Of a stretch of DNA of 60,564 bases, positions 3,541 to 60,564 are shown one piece after another (the stretch's first letter is position 1; the number at the start of each line of letters is the position of its first letter). Source of the DNA: Candidatus Roslinia caecavium (GTDB lineage: Bacteria > Bacillota > Clostridia > Monoglobales > Monoglobaceae); assembly GCA_904419955.1 (NCBI GenBank), contig CAJFTO010000015.1, positions 1 to 60,564 of the forward strand, in the 5' to 3' direction. The notes below the pieces were generated by a model that saw only the letters and a program-made list of their open reading frames with translations, ran no database searches and was not told the DNA's origin. A program made the translations under genes and the position numbers.

Positions 3541-4887
3541 ATGAAACTTATTGACTTAGAAAAACACAAGGACCGGTACGATATAGAAAATATCATATCG
3601 GACTTTAAAAGCGGGGCGCTGAAGGACGGGGATACCGTCTCTCTCGAAGGTTCTATCCACAAGATACGCGCTATGCGTAAATTCGCGTTTTTTGTTATCC
3701 GCACGCCGCGCAGGCTCGTTCAATGCGTATACGAGCCGACCGAGGGGCAAAAGCCGGTCTCGGATTTCAGCGAAGAGGACTGCGTAAGACTTAGCGGGAC
3801 CATAGCCGTGGACGCGAGAAGTCCGCTCGGCTTCGAGATACGCGTTAAGGACATAACGGTCCTGTCGTCGCCGGCCGAGAATCTTCCTATAGTTATAAAT
3901 AAAAAGAAACTCGACTGCAACGTCGATATAAAGCTCGACTACAGAGCCGTATCGCTCAGAAATCCCCACGAGAGAGCGTATATAAAGATATTGGACGGGA
4001 TAATGGACGCGTTCTCGACGTTTATGAGAAGCGAGGGCTTTACCGAGTTCGTGCCGCCTAAAATCGTTTCGGCGGGCGCCGAGGGCGGAGCCGATCTCTT
4101 TGAAGTGGACTATTTCGGAGAAAAGGCGTATCTTAACCAGAGCCCGCAGGTGTACAAGCAGATGATGGTCGGCGTGTTCAAAAAGGTATTCGTCATAGCT
4201 CCGGTATTCAGAGCCGAGAAACACAGCACGACGAGACATATAAACGAGTTCGAGGGTCTCGACTTTGAGATGGGATTCATCGATTCGTTTGAGGACGTGA
4301 TGGCGGTCGAGGCGAGGTTCATGGTCTACCTTTTCGACTTCCTGAAGAAGAATTACGCGCTCGAGCTTGAGGAGATAGGCGTAGAGCTTCCTGAAATAAA
4401 GCAAATACCGCAGTTTAAGTTTGTCGAGGCTAAGAAGATAGTAGCCGAAAAGTACGGAAGAGAGTTTAGAAACTCCAACGACTTAGACCCGGAGGAGGAG
4501 CGTTTGATCGGCGAATACGTCAAGGAGGAGTACGGCTCGCCGCTGGTGTTCGTCACGCATTATCCGTCTAAAAAGAGGCCGTTTTACGCGATGGACGACC
4601 CGGAGGATCCGAAGTATACGTTAAGCTTCGACCTGCTGTTAAACGGCGCCGAGGTCACGACCGGCGGCCAGAGGATACACGATTACCGGACGCAGGTCGA
4701 CAAAATGCTCGCGCGGGGTATGGATCCGGACGAATTCAAAGACTTTTTGATGATACACAAATACGGAATGCCGCCGCACGGCGGACTTGGTATTGGTCTT
4801 GAAAGACTCGCGATGAAGCTGCTCGAGGTCGATAACATCAGAACTGTCACGGCCTTCCCGAGAGATATGGGCAGGATCAATCCGTAA
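3541..4887 (+). CDS. aspS: Archaeal-type aspartate--tRNA ligase (aspartate--tRNA(Asn) ligase)
   Basis: A cytoplasmic class II aminoacyl-tRNA synthetase of 448 residues. An N-terminal OB-fold anticodon-binding domain (~1-125) precedes the catalytic domain. Motif 2 is FRAEKHSTTRHINEFEGLD and motif 3 is GIGLERLAM. The short length and the LNQSPQVYKQMM segment are typical of the archaeal/eukaryotic AspRS class; the bacterial AspS is about 590 residues with a GAD insertion. In Clostridia this class is often non-discriminating: it makes Asp-tRNA(Asn) as well as Asp-tRNA(Asp), and GatCAB then amidates the former. Discrimination cannot be judged by eye. The ATG follows AGGAAGTGAG with normal spacing. 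The gene stands alone with its own consensus promoter. Confidence 0.93.
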   Translation: MKLIDLEKHKDRYDIENIISDFKSGALKDGDTVSLEGSIHKIRAMRKFAFFVIRTPRRLVQCVYEPTEGQKPVSDFSEEDCVRLSGTIAVDARSPLGFEIRVKDITVLSSPAENLPIVINKKKLDCNVDIKLDYRAVSLRNPHERAYIKILDGIMDAFSTFMRSEGFTEFVPPKIVSAGAEGGADLFEVDYFGEKAYLNQSPQVYKQMMVGVFKKVFVIAPVFRAEKHSTTRHINEFEGLDFEMGFIDSFEDVMAVEARFMVYLFDFLKKNYALELEEIGVELPEIKQIPQFKFVEAKKIVAEKYGREFRNSNDLDPEEERLIGEYVKEEYGSPLVFVTHYPSKKRPFYAMDDPEDPKYTLSFDLLLNGAEVTTGGQRIHDYRTQVDKMLARGMDPDEFKDFLMIHKYGMPPHGGLGIGLERLAMKLLEVDNIRTVTAFPRDMGRINP

Positions 4888-4905
4888 ACGAGAGAATAGC
4901 GACGC

Positions 4906-4989
4906 AGAGATTAGCGAATAGGGATCGGCGACGCGGAAAATAGCGATAGAAAATAGCTATAGATATCGGCGATAGAGATTAGCGAATAG
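4906..4989 (+). repeat. Two direct copies of a 16-bp AT-rich repeat
   Basis: AGAGATTAGCGAATAG occurs at 4906-4921 and 4974-4989. Degenerate GAATAGCGA/GATAGCGA-like copies fill the space between them. A third exact copy lies at 10215-10230. This stretch begins just after the aspS stop and is non-coding in all frames. Confidence 0.75.
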
Positions 4990-5170
4990 GAGCCGAAAAG
5001 GCTCCTGCCGCCGTCTATGCGGCTTCTTAAGCCGTTTAGGAAGACGGAGTATCATTTCGCTTGAGTAGCCGCTTAAGCGTTGCGCGGGCGAATTTTAGCC
5101 GCCTAATACCTAACGCTTAAATTCCTAACGCCTATATAACCGCCTTTTGATTCGAGGCGGTTATATTTTT
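4988..5170 (+). other. Structured non-coding stretch ending in a distal terminator
   Basis: This lies in the 653-bp gap between aspS and blaI. A 7-bp hairpin (aggagcc/ggctcct, 4988-5006) begins it. A Rho-independent terminator ends it: stem ataaccgcc/ggcggttat at 5136-5164 followed by ATTTTTT. The terminator is about 250 nt beyond the aspS stop. It therefore closes either a long 3' UTR or a separate small RNA. I see no coding region and no known riboswitch or RNA family. From 5171 to 5450 nothing can be identified. Confidence 0.5.
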
Positions 5171-22365: not shown

Positions 22366-23688
22366 ATGTTTAAAATTTGGGATAAGGAAATTGAATGTTG
22401 CTCGGATCATAAGAAGATAGAAGAGATCCAGCTCGAACGTCTGAAGTATTCGGTAAACAAGGCGTATAACAACGTCAAGTTTTACAAAGACAAATTCGAC
22501 GAGACGGGGATCTCGCCCGATTCGATAAAGAGTCTTGAGGATATCAAGAATCTGCCGTTTACGACCAAAGACGATATGCGGGACAACTATCCGTTCGGAT
22601 TGTTCGCCGAGCCTAAGAAGAATATCGCGAGGATCCACGCTTCGTCGGGAACCACCGGCAAGCCGGTCGTGGCGGGATATACCAAGAAGGATCTCGATAC
22701 TTGGTCTACCGCGATTGCGAGGATAGCCACCGCGGCGGGGATCACCGACGAGGACGTAGTTCAGATCGCGTTCGGCTACGGCTTGTTTACGGGCGGGTTC
22801 GGTCTCCATTACGGTATTGAAAAGATCGGTTCCATGATAGTTCCTATGTCGAGCGGAAACACTCAGAAGCAGCTTATGCTTATGCAGGATCTGGGCGTCA
22901 CCGGGTTGGTCGCGACGCCGTCGTACGCCGTCTACCTGTCCGAGATGATAGAGGAGATGAACATCCCCCGCGAGAATTTTAAACTCAAATACGGACTCTT
23001 CGGTTCGGAGGGAATGAGCGAGGAGATGCGCAAAAACCTCGAGGATAAGATGGGTATTCTGGTGACGTCCAACTACGGCCTCACCGAGGTCATGGGTCCG
23101 GGAGTATCGGGCGAATGTCATTTAAAATGCGGACAGCACATAAACGAGGATATGTTCTACATAGAGATAATCGACCCGGCGACGGGCGAGGTATTGCCGT
23201 ACGGAGAGAAAGGCGAGGTGGTGATAACCACGCTCGCGAAAGAGGCGATGCCGGTCATAAGATACAGGACGAGAGACATATCGTACCTGATACCGGATTC
23301 ATGCGAGTGCGGCAGAACGAACTGGCGCCTTGCGCCGATACAGGGACGCACCGACGATATGCTCATTATCAAGGGCGTAAACGTGTTCCCGTCTCAGATC
23401 GAGAGCGTAGTCCTCGGATTCCCGCAGGTCAGCCCGAATTACCAGTTGATCGTAAGACGCAAAAATATGCTGGACTACCTCGAAGTCGTCGTAGAGCTGA
23501 TCGACGGAGAGCTGCTGACAAGTTTCAGCGAGGTCGAAAAGCTTCAGAAAGAGATCTCGGCCAAGCTGCACAGCGTGCTGGGGCTCAGAGCTAATCTAAG
23601 GCTCGCCGAGCCGCGTTCTATCGAAAGGACGACCGGTAAGTCGAAGCGCGTTATAGATCTTAGAAATCAGGACGAAACGCAGGATTAG
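22366..23688 (+). CDS. paaK: Phenylacetate--CoA ligase family protein
   Basis: A 440-residue AMP-forming acyl-CoA ligase of the PaaK type. The ATP-binding loop is ASSGTTGKPVVAGY and adenylation motifs include NYGLTEVMGPGVSGEC. The C-terminal PaaK domain carries GRTDDMLIIKGVNVFPSQIE. It would activate an aryl acetate such as phenylacetate or indoleacetate to its CoA thioester, or run in reverse for ATP gain. It sits directly before iorA, iorB and an ACT-domain gene, a set I recall from anaerobes fermenting aromatic amino acids. The start follows AGTAAGGAG. Confidence 0.93.
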   Translation: MFKIWDKEIECCSDHKKIEEIQLERLKYSVNKAYNNVKFYKDKFDETGISPDSIKSLEDIKNLPFTTKDDMRDNYPFGLFAEPKKNIARIHASSGTTGKPVVAGYTKKDLDTWSTAIARIATAAGITDEDVVQIAFGYGLFTGGFGLHYGIEKIGSMIVPMSSGNTQKQLMLMQDLGVTGLVATPSYAVYLSEMIEEMNIPRENFKLKYGLFGSEGMSEEMRKNLEDKMGILVTSNYGLTEVMGPGVSGECHLKCGQHINEDMFYIEIIDPATGEVLPYGEKGEVVITTLAKEAMPVIRYRTRDISYLIPDSCECGRTNWRLAPIQGRTDDMLIIKGVNVFPSQIESVVLGFPQVSPNYQLIVRRKNMLDYLEVVVELIDGELLTSFSEVEKLQKEISAKLHSVLGLRANLRLAEPRSIERTTGKSKRVIDLRNQDETQD

Positions 23689-58227: not shown

Positions 58228-58632
58228 TTAATCGATACCGTTGCAATAATTCTTTTTAACTGGTCTATTTTGGATCCTGTCCAAAGCTTCGCCGAATCTT
58301 TGGAAATGTACGATCTCGCGCTGTCTTAAAAATTTAATAACGTCGCTTACGTCCGGATCGTCGGAAACCCTCAAAATGTTGTCGTAAACGGCCCTCGCTT
58401 TTTGCTCGGCGGCCAAATTCTCGGTCAGATCGGTGATAGGATCTCCCGAAACGGCTATAGACGCCGCGTTAAACGGGACTCCCGTCGAATCCGCGGGAAA
58501 CACGCCGCGTCCGTGGTTGATAAAATACGCGCCGAACGGACTTTCCTCGATCTCCTTATCCGTAGCGTTCTTAGCGAGCTGTCTGACCAGCGACCCGACT
58601 ATTTCCAAGTGCGCCAATTCTTCAGCTCCGCC
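58228..58632 (-). pseudogene. cotJC: 3' part of cotJC (spore-coat manganese catalase), interrupted
   Basis: The frame encodes the C-terminal ~133 residues of a CotJC-type manganese catalase. It begins inside the conserved metal-ligand motif: GAEELAHLEIVGSLVRQL at 58629-58576 corresponds to family GTEELAHLE. It runs to the natural C-terminus, including IAVSGDPITDLTENLAAEQKAR and FLRQREIVHFQRFGEAL. Family members are about 190-200 residues, so roughly the first 60 are missing. The codons just upstream (Gly, His, then a TAA stop at 58636-58638) no longer match the family. No start codon or ribosome binding site fits the fragment. A serine recombinase element begins at the break. The preserved fragment suggests recent or reversible interruption. 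Confidence 0.88.
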
Positions 58633-58636
58633 ATGT
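58624..58636. mobile_element. Predicted attachment-site junction (left end of the integrated element)
   Basis: Similarity to CotJC stops around 58629-58632, within the codons GGC-GGA-GCT-GAA (minus strand). The recombination core is expected to be a few bases shared with the other end of the element. The exact crossover cannot be set without the right junction. Confidence 0.6.
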
Positions 58637-58649
58637 TAGACGTTCGCAG

Positions 58650-58678
58650 AAAAAAACAAGCCAGTTTTGCAGGCTTGT
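58650..58678 (-). terminator. Terminator of the serine recombinase gene
   Basis: Stem acaagcc/ggcttgt (58656-58678); on the minus strand it is followed by a run of seven or more T. It isolates recombinase transcription from the cotJC fragment. Confidence 0.85.
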
Positions 58679-58706
58679 GAAAATCAATACTTAATATATT
58701 ATCTCT

Positions 58707-60299
58707 CTATTTTTGATTCGTAATTTTAGTATTCGCAAGCTTAGGATAGATTACCAGCTCGAAATTATCCTTGCATTTACGCGAGCCTTTATTTCTTTTA
58801 ATATATACGATCTTAGTGATAACTTCCTTGAGCATTTGGTTTTTTGTCTCTATATCGTCAACGCCGTTATACGCCTCGATAAGGTTTTCAATCCGAGGGA
58901 TAAATTCATCGTTTCCAATATTTAAGGCGTTATACTTTTCGATCTTTTCTTTCAACAAAGCCCTGGAGTTTTTTAACTCGGCCAGCTGATCCGCAAGTAT
59001 TTTAGACCGTTCTATAAATATTTCCGACGTATACACTCCCTGTTCGAGTAAATCGTACAGCGAATTGGTCTGCTTATTTAAAGTCGAAATTTCAGCGTCT
59101 ATTTCGCTTATGCGTTTTTCGTATATATAGCGCTCGTCCAGGGCGCGATCTTCTTTCGAGGATAAGTTGAGCTTGTAGTCTTTCAGCCAGTCCGCAAGCA
59201 GACTTAAAACTTTGTCCTCGACGAGCTTAAGCTCGGAGCCTATATTGGTGCACTCAGGCCTTACGCAGATCAAACCGTCCGGCGTTTTACCGCCGTATGG
59301 CCGGCGCATCATTTTATGTCCGCATACGCCACAGACGATTAATCCGGCCAGCGGATTTGACAGCCCGCGCTTTCCTATGGGAGCGGCGCTGTTTTGAGAT
59401 ATATAATACTGTGCGAGATTCCATGTGTCCAGTGAAATAATAGGCGGGTGCAGGCCGTCGGTCGTTATACAATCCTTGTTTCTTGGTCGGCTATTGACTT
59501 TTACGCCGTTTACTATCTTACTTACATGAGCGCGGGCGTTCCATCTAATCTTACCTATGTAGACCGGGTTATGTAAAATGCCTTTTATAGTCTCGGGCGA
59601 CCAGAAGTCGTTTTTTCGGGATTTAATGCCGAGCTGTTTGAGCTGTTTACAGATCTTGCTTGCGCCGATCCGCTCTCTTTGGGCGTTTTCGTTTACGACG
59701 CCGTTAGTATACATATCAAATATAAGCTTTACAACGTCGGCTTCCGATTCTAAGGGTTCAAGCGTGTAGCCCTTTCCGTTTAATACCGGTATGCGGCGGT
59801 ACCCGTATGGCGCGACATTTCCGACATATTTTCCTTCTTTGACCGAAGCGAGCCGACCGCGCTGTAGTCTGCGATTTATGACCTTATATTCTCTGCGCGA
59901 CATAAACAGCCCAAACTCAAAGTATTCTTCGTCGAATTCGTTATTTGGGTTATAGGTCTTTATAGGAGTAATGATTTTTGTGTCGCTGTACTTGAACGTC
60001 TGAGAAATAATACCCTGATCTATCGTATCGCCCCTTGCTAAACGCTCTATCTCCATTACAAGAACTCCGTCCCAAAGCCCCGCTTCAACGTCCGCTAAAA
60101 GTTCCTGTACCATCGGACGGCTCGCGATGGTATCGCCGGAGACGACCTCGCGGTATATTTTAGTTATATTTAAATTCATTTGTTTGCCTAAAGAAAGCAG
60201 CGTCTTTTCGTGACGGCTGAGCGTTTCCTCTACACTCGAATCGGGAGCGCTTTCATCAGCGCGTGATTTTCTTAAATAGACGCAGTAATTCCCGTCCAT
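58707..60299 (-). CDS. Large serine recombinase (site-specific integrase/excisionase)
   Basis: A 530-residue recombinase that cuts and rejoins DNA through a serine-phosphate intermediate. The catalytic N-terminal resolvase domain (~5-150) has the nucleophile Ser12 in CVYLRKSRADE and the motif VMEIERLARGD. A recombinase domain (~165-275: YGYRRIPVLNGKGYTLEPLE, GIKSRKNDFWSPETIKGILHNP) follows. A zinc ribbon (~325-360: CGVCGHKMMRRP and the distal CVRPEC) precedes a coiled coil (~385-455). It is of the SpoIVCA/phage integrase type. The gene ends about 75 bp from the cotJC break, the usual place for the integrase of an element. The start follows AGAAGGTG on the minus strand. Confidence 0.94.
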   Translation of the reverse strand: MDGNYCVYLRKSRADESAPDSSVEETLSRHEKTLLSLGKQMNLNITKIYREVVSGDTIASRPMVQELLADVEAGLWDGVLVMEIERLARGDTIDQGIISQTFKYSDTKIITPIKTYNPNNEFDEEYFEFGLFMSRREYKVINRRLQRGRLASVKEGKYVGNVAPYGYRRIPVLNGKGYTLEPLESEADVVKLIFDMYTNGVVNENAQRERIGASKICKQLKQLGIKSRKNDFWSPETIKGILHNPVYIGKIRWNARAHVSKIVNGVKVNSRPRNKDCITTDGLHPPIISLDTWNLAQYYISQNSAAPIGKRGLSNPLAGLIVCGVCGHKMMRRPYGGKTPDGLICVRPECTNIGSELKLVEDKVLSLLADWLKDYKLNLSSKEDRALDERYIYEKRISEIDAEISTLNKQTNSLYDLLEQGVYTSEIFIERSKILADQLAELKNSRALLKEKIEKYNALNIGNDEFIPRIENLIEAYNGVDDIETKNQMLKEVITKIVYIKRNKGSRKCKDNFELVIYPKLANTKITNQK

Positions 60300-60335
60300 A
60301 GCTATACACCTTCTATTGCTGACTGTAATGCTTAA

Positions 60336-60364
60336 AACATAATACCATGTCGCTTGCGTGTCAA
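60336..60364 (-). promoter_or_regulatory. Probable recombinase promoter
   Basis: On the minus strand TTGACA (60364-60359) and TATGTT (60341-60336) with a 17-bp spacer, about 40 bp upstream of the recombinase start. The -10 is imperfect. Palindromes lie directly upstream. Confidence 0.5.
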
Positions 60365-60378
60365 TAGTATATGATAGT

Positions 60379-60409
60379 ATGTATCAATACATGATAAAAA
60401 ATATGTATT
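60379..60409. promoter_or_regulatory. Operator-like palindromes upstream of the recombinase gene
   Basis: ATGTAT-CA-ATACAT (60379-60392) is a perfect dyad. ATGTATT recurs at 60403-60409, giving three half-sites. A wider pair, ATACCAT (60342-60348) and ATGGTAT (60438-60444), brackets them. They lie between two divergent genes, so they may bind a repressor or developmental regulator. Confidence 0.5.
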
Positions 60410-60496
60410 ATTAATATTTTCGAACAATACTATGAAAATGGTATCCAAAAGCACTAATATCGACATATTGATAATATGCGAATAGGAGCGGCTGTT

Positions 60497-60564
60497 ATGG
60501 ACGGATACGATTCAATAAGAGAAAAGCAAGATGAAAATATAGAGAAGCGGGATTTTGAGACCAG
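60497..60564 (+). CDS. Partial divergent gene of the element (5' end only)
   Basis: ATG 60497 follows TAGGAGCGG. The first 22 codons (MDGYDSIREKQDENIEKRDF and on) are open to the window edge. They are charged and likely helical. Family cannot be judged from so little. It is divergent from the recombinase and shares the palindromic control region. Confidence 0.55.
   Translation, partial: MDGYDSIREKQDENIEKRDFET

Follow-up and report, generated by a model that had tools for sequence, protein, structure and literature searches.

The spore-coat gene cotJC appears to be split by an element carrying a phage-type large serine recombinase in "Candidatus Roslinia caecavium" and in many other Clostridia

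A cotJC fragment beside a large serine recombinase

The DNA analyzed here (the window) is a stretch of 60,564 nucleotides, contig CAJFTO010000015.1 (C15) of the "Candidatus Roslinia caecavium" assembly GCA_904419955.1 (Clostridia; Monoglobales). It holds only the 3′ part of cotJC, a spore-coat gene of the manganese catalase family, next to a gene for a large serine recombinase. A preliminary description had read this arrangement as one end of an element that uses cotJC as a reversible integration site and leaves it during sporulation. The locus, which is cut where the contig stops at position 60564, contains the following features.

58228 to 58623, minus strand: cotJC 3′ part (spore-coat Mn-catalase family), about 132 codons including the stop; PF05067
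58611 to 58623, minus strand: 13-bp core at codons 64 to 68, on the side of the right attachment site (attR); matches the junction on contig C37 in register
58628 to 58637, minus strand: element-side arm AACATGGCGG; the C37 junction has its inverted repeat, CCGCCATGTT
58650 to 58677, minus strand: hairpin CAAGCC-9 nt-GGCTTG with a T run behind it, identified by eye; it probably terminates the recombinase gene
58707 to 60299, minus strand: large serine recombinase of 530 amino acids, phage-integrase clade, lineage B-I (from Pfam, relatives, and trees)
60336 to 60364, minus strand: weak sigma-A-like promoter TTGACA-17-TATGTT upstream of the recombinase, 10 of 12 positions matching
60497 to 60564, plus strand: divergent frame inside the element, identified by eye; start only, cut by the contig end

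The cotJC 3′ part, followed by frame and translation, runs on the minus strand from the core (58623-58611) to a stop at 58228, while upstream of the core the minus-strand frame in the window departs from CotJC and then meets a stop codon. The match of its 129-amino-acid frame to the Pfam model PF05067 (Mn_catalase) begins only at model position 67, and the recombinase, whose gene ends 84 nt from the core, carries resolvase, recombinase, and zinc-ribbon domains (PF00239, PF07508, and PF13408) above the cutoffs, so the truncation described earlier stands. Going beyond that description, the domains and relatives place the recombinase with those of phage-integrase type. The terminator that had been assigned to its gene is probably the hairpin and T run at 58677-58650, which is missing from the program's hairpin list, where the loop limit was 8 nt and this loop has 9 nt. 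The promoter is called weak because the pattern scan of the recombinase region returned 8 sites against 4.5 expected. The core falls on a GTEELAH-type motif of CotJC, whose conserved residues we take to be manganese ligands. Three further large serine recombinases are encoded elsewhere in the genome, on contigs C9, C35, and C19.

The other half of the gene and the join

The assembly is a draft of 71 contigs, and the two halves of cotJC lie on separate ones. Contig C37 carries cotJB (23300-23527), preceded by a CotJA-like frame recognized by eye and followed by the first 67 codons of cotJC (C37:23563-23763), which end in ...DIGTEELA. This is the junction that had been predicted, with cotJA, cotJB, and the start of cotJC in the same reading frame and with a short common core. 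The core, GAAGAATTGGCGC, is shared by both cotJC ends over 13 bp in register, whereas 90 other offsets give at most 5 bp. The presence of the other half in the same genome and this shared core argue that the arrangement is more than chance. When the C37 and window halves were joined in silico, the CotJC frame (...TDIGTEELAHLE...) stayed open without a stop. A Spo0A-like frame, also seen by eye, lies shortly upstream of the cotJ genes on C37.

The element-side arms at the two ends are inverted repeats of each other, as in a phage attachment site (attP). Across 33 junctions taken from many genomes, arms of this kind paired at a mean of 13.9 of 20 bases compared with 10.8 for shuffled pairs; none of 5,000 permutations equaled the observed mean, and 16 of the 33 junctions stood out singly. 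Read from core and arms, the element has inserted exactly, with a left attachment site (attL) on C37 and attR at 58611-58637 that together preserve the reading frame, and the integration appears to be fully reversible, leaving no scar.

An assembly or binning artefact, in which an element was wrongly joined to halves that belong together, would be conceivable in a draft with the halves on different contigs. It is largely refuted by the match of core and arms between C37 and C15 and by the recurrence of the arrangement in genomes assembled as single contigs (below), and we consider it highly improbable.

A second cotJC was not found in the draft; the only other match is a catalase paralogue that is 31 to 35% identical. 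The outcomes that had been named as contradicting the preliminary description were looked at and did not occur, as the 5′ half is present, the join is in frame, and the draft yielded no intact second copy. The same observations bear on the idea that the element brings its own 3′ part and regenerates the gene on entry, so that excision would be needless. A locus in genome G307 (L350, on G307:C100) gives this idea some substance, with an intact cotJC (1469-2014) and, 2.1 kb downstream, a second 3′ part (4099-4461) that is 72.8% identical and has a B-I-like arm; here an element has perhaps repaired its target with its own 3′ copy. The genome of the window yielded no such copy, and the 5′ part on C37 enters the element at the core, which refutes the idea for the window and leaves it with practically no probability.

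The known ends of the element, reaching C37:28969 on one side and C15:60564 on the other, sum to about 7.1 kb. Within this known part, Pfam names only one of the three frames on the C37 side, a 1,214-amino-acid subtilase that contains RCC1 repeats and lies immediately within the element (C37:24053-27697; L038 14554-18198). The portal protein of a related prophage in genome G021 was used as a probe for the middle of the element and gave only distant relatives, on C43 (29% identity) and C41 (25% identity), which were rejected; the C37 and C15 ends had no exact 25-base match within the 20 kb examined of each of these contigs.

Split cotJC in the order and in the class

Among 40 genomes of the window's order that are at least 80% complete, cotJC is split in 14, intact in 13, cut by a contig end in 2, and ambiguous in 4; in 7 none was seen. 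Within the 14 split cases, only a single part was found in G013, G014, and G017, and the middle is absent in G012 and G020. A catalase paralogue occurs in 19 of the 40 genomes and is split in none, with one cut by a contig end; for 14 of 27 for cotJC against 0 of 19 for the paralogue, the Fisher test without correction for kinship gives P = 1.6e-4.

A wider survey covered 254 Clostridia genomes at least 97% complete, 154 of which gave a match. Among the matches listed, cotJC proper was present in 145 genomes, with 92 full-length, 53 partial, and 2 contig-end-cut cases, and two of the 53 partial cases (G221 and G307) had a full copy besides. Partial copies only are accordingly estimated for 51 of 145 genomes among the matches listed, a figure for which contig-end distance was checked for part of the 53 and few cases were traced to the other half. 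Even so, one coat gene would be represented by partial copies only in about one-third of the sampled Clostridia that show it among these matches, and gene annotation may miss this spore-coat enzyme in many genomes. cotJC is split in the single-contig genomes G021, G085, G093, G159, G193, G243, and G196, the first six of which show the same arrangement as the window, as does one contig each of the culture-collection strains Sedimentibacter acidaminivorans DSM 24004 and Lactonifactor longoviformis DSM 17459. In DSM 24004 about 46 kb separate the parts of the one cotJC found, and DSM 17459 has an intact copy in addition to the split one.

Insertion sites and recombinase lineages

The junctions fall at a few places in the gene: site A at codons 28 to 35 (GGPxGE), site B, which is that of the window, at codons 53 to 68 (mostly GTEELxH), site C at codons 133 to 136 (AAEQKAR), and site D at codons 111 to 113 in a single case (G226). 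In the CotJC of one relative, the ligand motifs of sites A, B, and C align with those of solved manganese catalases. Cores were compared in 26 junction pairs from 22 genomes, leaving out G057, whose overlapping pieces reach contig ends; the in-register match was the longest of all offsets in 17 pairs and tied in 1. Recombinase frames end within 80 nt of the matched cotJC piece in 26 of 31 cases and, in a second set, in 16 of 24.

A tree of 53 recombinases, built quickly with FastTree and having some long branches, contains about eight deep clades, designated B-I (with the window), B-II, B-III, A-I, A-II, A-III, C, and D. At least six independent origins of the site labels (two for A, two for B, and one each for C and D) are required by its starred branches, and four changes of site label suffice on it compared with a mean of 18.3 after shuffling; a smaller tree needs 3 site changes compared with 10.8. 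These results point to one gene that was entered repeatedly, each lineage keeping its site. The earlier suggestion that such codons serve as targets too conserved to drift fits these wider data, in which several recombinase lineages converge on the same motifs.

In the site-B inserts of G029, G032, and G062, a frame of 63 to 75 amino acids with alike ends, noted by eye, lies beside the recombinase and is a possible candidate for a directionality factor. The G032 insert has, toward its far end, a second recombinase (L071 310-1926) that is apparently broken into two adjacent frames, in addition to an intact one, and the G062 and G064 inserts encode another large protein of about 1,400 amino acids.

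Genes with several elements

Several cotJC genes are interrupted more than once. The gene is in three pieces in G021, G029, G159, and G276, and in G065 it is in four pieces on three contigs, with sites A, B, and C all occupied. Inserts at both site A and site B were found in all four genomes of genus g39 that were followed. Some inserts are small and lack recognized phage genes, namely, one of 2,668 bp at site A of G021, which consists of a recombinase and two small frames, and one of about 3.4 kb at site C of G065.

In two genomes a remnant of the gene lies between elements. The site-B insert of G298 has recombinases of two lineages, one at each end, with codons for TDIGTEEL in between (3296899-3296876), and the insert of G085 has recombinases of two types and codons for AKGVLTDIG (3123130-3123104). 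These pieces of 8 to 9 codons are on the correct strand, in the correct order, and flanked by the arms of both element types. With its short piece, the rebuilt G298 gene reads GTEELAH, compared with GAEELAH if the outer ends alone are joined, and the four-piece G085 gene reads through. In-register rejoining of G085, G196, G276, G221, and G228 gave a full gene from G085 only.

On balance, these cases favor a picture in which cotJC in Clostridia resembles a gene with DNA introns, with up to three elements of different lineages in about 190 codons at metal-ligand motifs, and pieces of fewer than 10 codons in between. Before the catalase could be made, the mother cell, itself about to die, would have to excise all of them, perhaps in a set order, and phages would ride silently into spores.

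Connection to phages

The recombinase of the window has 70 relatives in IMG/VR, and a cotJC 3′ part lies beside the recombinase in 16 of them (two pairs of the 16 being alike in the stretch compared). In two of the 16 (L247 and L273), the cotJC 3′ part stops at site C, as though a further element occupied that place. In G021, a single-contig genome, the site used in the window is occupied by a 40.8-kb prophage of the same recombinase lineage, with terminase, portal, head, tape-measure, and endolysin genes.

Annotated phages matched the recombinase in 450 records, all below 60% identity, with the best matches in Paenibacillus, fecal, Dorea, Thermoanaerobacterium, and Terrisporobacter phages. 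Behind the integrase of Dorea phage DO134P1, a free phage from sewage, 43 nt are identical to attR of the cotJC prophage L269; this stretch spans the attP half and stops inside the cotJC codons. The human fecal phage record MT835739 has 16 nt over the core in common with prophage L274 and 12 nt in common with cotJC genes. For phages THSA-485A, phiIBB_P123, and TVCOM_ph1, the sequence behind the integrase was judged by eye not to be cotJC-like, so cotJC is not a general target of this recombinase family.

Selection on the rejoined genes and a natural empty site

All 21 rejoined genes, for which the cut points were set by hand, are free of stops to codon 176 and keep the five presumed ligands, with one (G061) shifted by a one-codon insertion. 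The ratio of nonsynonymous to synonymous divergence (dN/dS) of split genes is about 0.01 among G062, G063, and G064 and 0.01 to 0.02 among G058, G065, and G066, and the split pair G045/G046 has a dN of 0 at a dS of 0.26; other split-gene pairs reach up to 0.11, and most of the distant pairs are saturated. Intact cotJC genes of genus g7 have ratios of 0.02 to 0.05. Substitution ratios of this size demonstrate purifying selection on the rejoined genes of the relatives. The close relatives G006 and G013 provide a natural empty site: cotJC is interrupted at site B in G006 and continuous there in G013, and the rejoined and the uninterrupted sequences agree at 74 of 75 nt.

The open frames with all five presumed ligands and the low dN/dS make it very unlikely that the split genes are dead remains of a catalase that was lost or replaced by its paralogue, even though the paralogue is present in 19 of the 40 order genomes, the gene of G196 could not be rebuilt, G221 and G307 have a full copy besides the partial one, and G053 has an intact second copy.

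A proposed mechanism and ordinary lysogeny

The reading that we consider probable is that a phage-type element, similar to skin and SP-β, sits in cotJC at codons 64 to 68 and is excised in the mother cell; the insertion is read from the sequence, and the excision is inferred. At the GTEELAH motif, cotJC would have been entered by an element whose large serine recombinase is of phage type, and both vegetative cells and the spore would carry this element. In the mother cell, where coat proteins are synthesized and which later dies, recombination between attL and attR would restore the full cotJC gene and free the element in circular form, presumably with the participation of a directionality factor. 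The excision itself and its restriction to sporulation are suggested by the combination of selection on genes that are broken as sequenced, two- and threefold breaks, the persistence of small elements, the sigma-E dependence listed for cotJC in Bacillus subtilis, and the known elements of other spore genes. In B. subtilis, cotJC is included in a table of sigma-E genes (PMC3416734). The uninterrupted sigma-K gene in the window's genome also speaks for this reading.

The alternative with most to say for it is ordinary lysogeny, in which cotJC would serve as a phage attachment site and be inactivated in lysogens without developmental excision, its healthy look being due to young insertions or occasional loss of the phage. 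The full prophage within cotJC in G021, the free phage with its attP half, and the different sites filled in the close relatives G006 and G013 are what lysogeny would produce. The small inserts without recognized phage genes (G021 site A and G065 site C), the open frames and ligand residues kept in genes with two or three inserts, and the presence of site A and B inserts in all four of the genus g39 genomes followed do not fit it well, and we regard lysogeny of this kind as rather unlikely.

Several observations weigh against developmental excision, some of them in favor of lysogeny. The recombinase dS is often below that of cotJC (0.28 versus 0.77 for G062/G064), from which it follows that elements move between species, that some are younger than the species split, and that the gene under selection may at times have been uninterrupted; this too is expected under lysogeny. 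For 8 of the 26 junction pairs some other offset gives a longer match than the correct register does, as would be expected if cores drift or span few bases. The gene of G196, from the same genus as G085, could not be rebuilt, and the expected place has an arm and no cotJC codons. Upstream of 23 recombinases, promoter patterns for sigma-E, sigma-K, and sigma-G/F were not clearly more frequent than in shuffled sequences, which speaks against regulation of the recombinase gene by sporulation and again agrees with lysogeny. In SP-β, control resides in the directionality factor, so the negative promoter scan at the recombinase is not decisive. Finally, mutants of Clostridioides difficile homologues are described as having less catalase activity and no significant defect of the coat (PMC11222575); an interrupted gene or its plain loss in lysogens might therefore be tolerated, which keeps lysogeny alive as an explanation.

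Comparison with known elements

The cotJC elements belong to a known kind, which comprises the intervening elements of spore genes, regulated gene integrity, and the multi-element genes of heterocyst formers. In the literature covered, programmed excision from spore genes is described for a short list of hosts, sigK, spsM, spoVFB, spoVR, gerE, and yabG (PMC4191935, PMC5595907, and PMC10747680). The skin element of B. subtilis and C. difficile is a serine recombinase element in sigK whose removal rebuilds the gene (PMC4191935 and PMC5025042), and it resembles the cotJC element in lying inside a mother-cell gene that its removal would restore (PMC4191935). It differs in its host gene, as the sigma-K gene of the window's genome is uninterrupted, and in that excision from cotJC is so far a proposal. 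The SP-β prophage, which has a large serine recombinase, splits the spore-envelope gene spsM and leaves it precisely (PMC4191935); a prophage with such a recombinase splitting a spore gene is common to both (PMC4191935), whereas cotJC, in Clostridia, has many recombinase lineages and several sites in one gene, with excision again proposed.

The gin element of gerE is an intervening element without phage genes and with a 9-bp core, and in this it is similar to some of the small cotJC inserts, which seemingly lack such genes as well (PMC5595907). For gin, for yin in the late spore gene yabG (PMC10747680), and for vfbin in spoVFB and vrin in spoVR (PMC4191935), the portions of the sources at hand describe one element per gene (PMC5595907, PMC10747680, and PMC4191935), compared with two or three in cotJC. 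The closest likeness in number is found in heterocyst genes of cyanobacteria, where several elements occur in 10 of 87 interrupted genes, including four in one nifD, and serine recombinases occur in each ortholog group (PMC4874684); these belong to another phylum and another terminal cell type (PMC4874684). The general class shared with the cotJC elements is regulated gene integrity, in which an integrated element turns a gene off and its exit restores the gene (PMC10111431).

The literature searched on cotJC, available in part, contained no report of this gene being interrupted by an element. The nearest case is phi027 of C. difficile, whose attachment site adjoins the CotJC homologue (CDR20291_1465, cotG); the catalase gene there is a 678-bp frame downstream of attR, described as adjacent rather than interrupted (PMC11222575 and PMC12122855). 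As far as the literature searched shows, it is new that cotJC serves as a host gene, that this is spread through Clostridia, that lineages converge on codons for metal ligands, and that pieces of fewer than 10 codons occur between elements. The findings point to a general rule by which elements that must last through dormancy have a safe dock in a late, highly conserved stretch of coding sequence in a cell that dies anyway, and the cotJC cases supply a set of natural recombinases with paired sites.

Unusual arrangements of cotJC

Some copies of cotJC are arranged in other ways. In G124:C1, a single contig, the two halves (225389-225487, minus strand, and 452986-453465, plus strand) share a 16-bp core and lie 227 kb apart on opposite strands; judged by this orientation, the gene would be rebuilt only by inversion, and excision would not do, in a genome that is listed with 11% contamination. 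Intact cotJC occurs alongside a split copy in the same genome at G053:C73 and G221:C3. A locus of G299 (L351, on G299:C68) has tandem cotJC 3′ parts (1209-1586 and 4749-5126) 3.2 kb apart. In G093, the cotJC halves are separated by about 157 kb (G093:C1 2541692-2698414), within which only one recombinase of this family was found.

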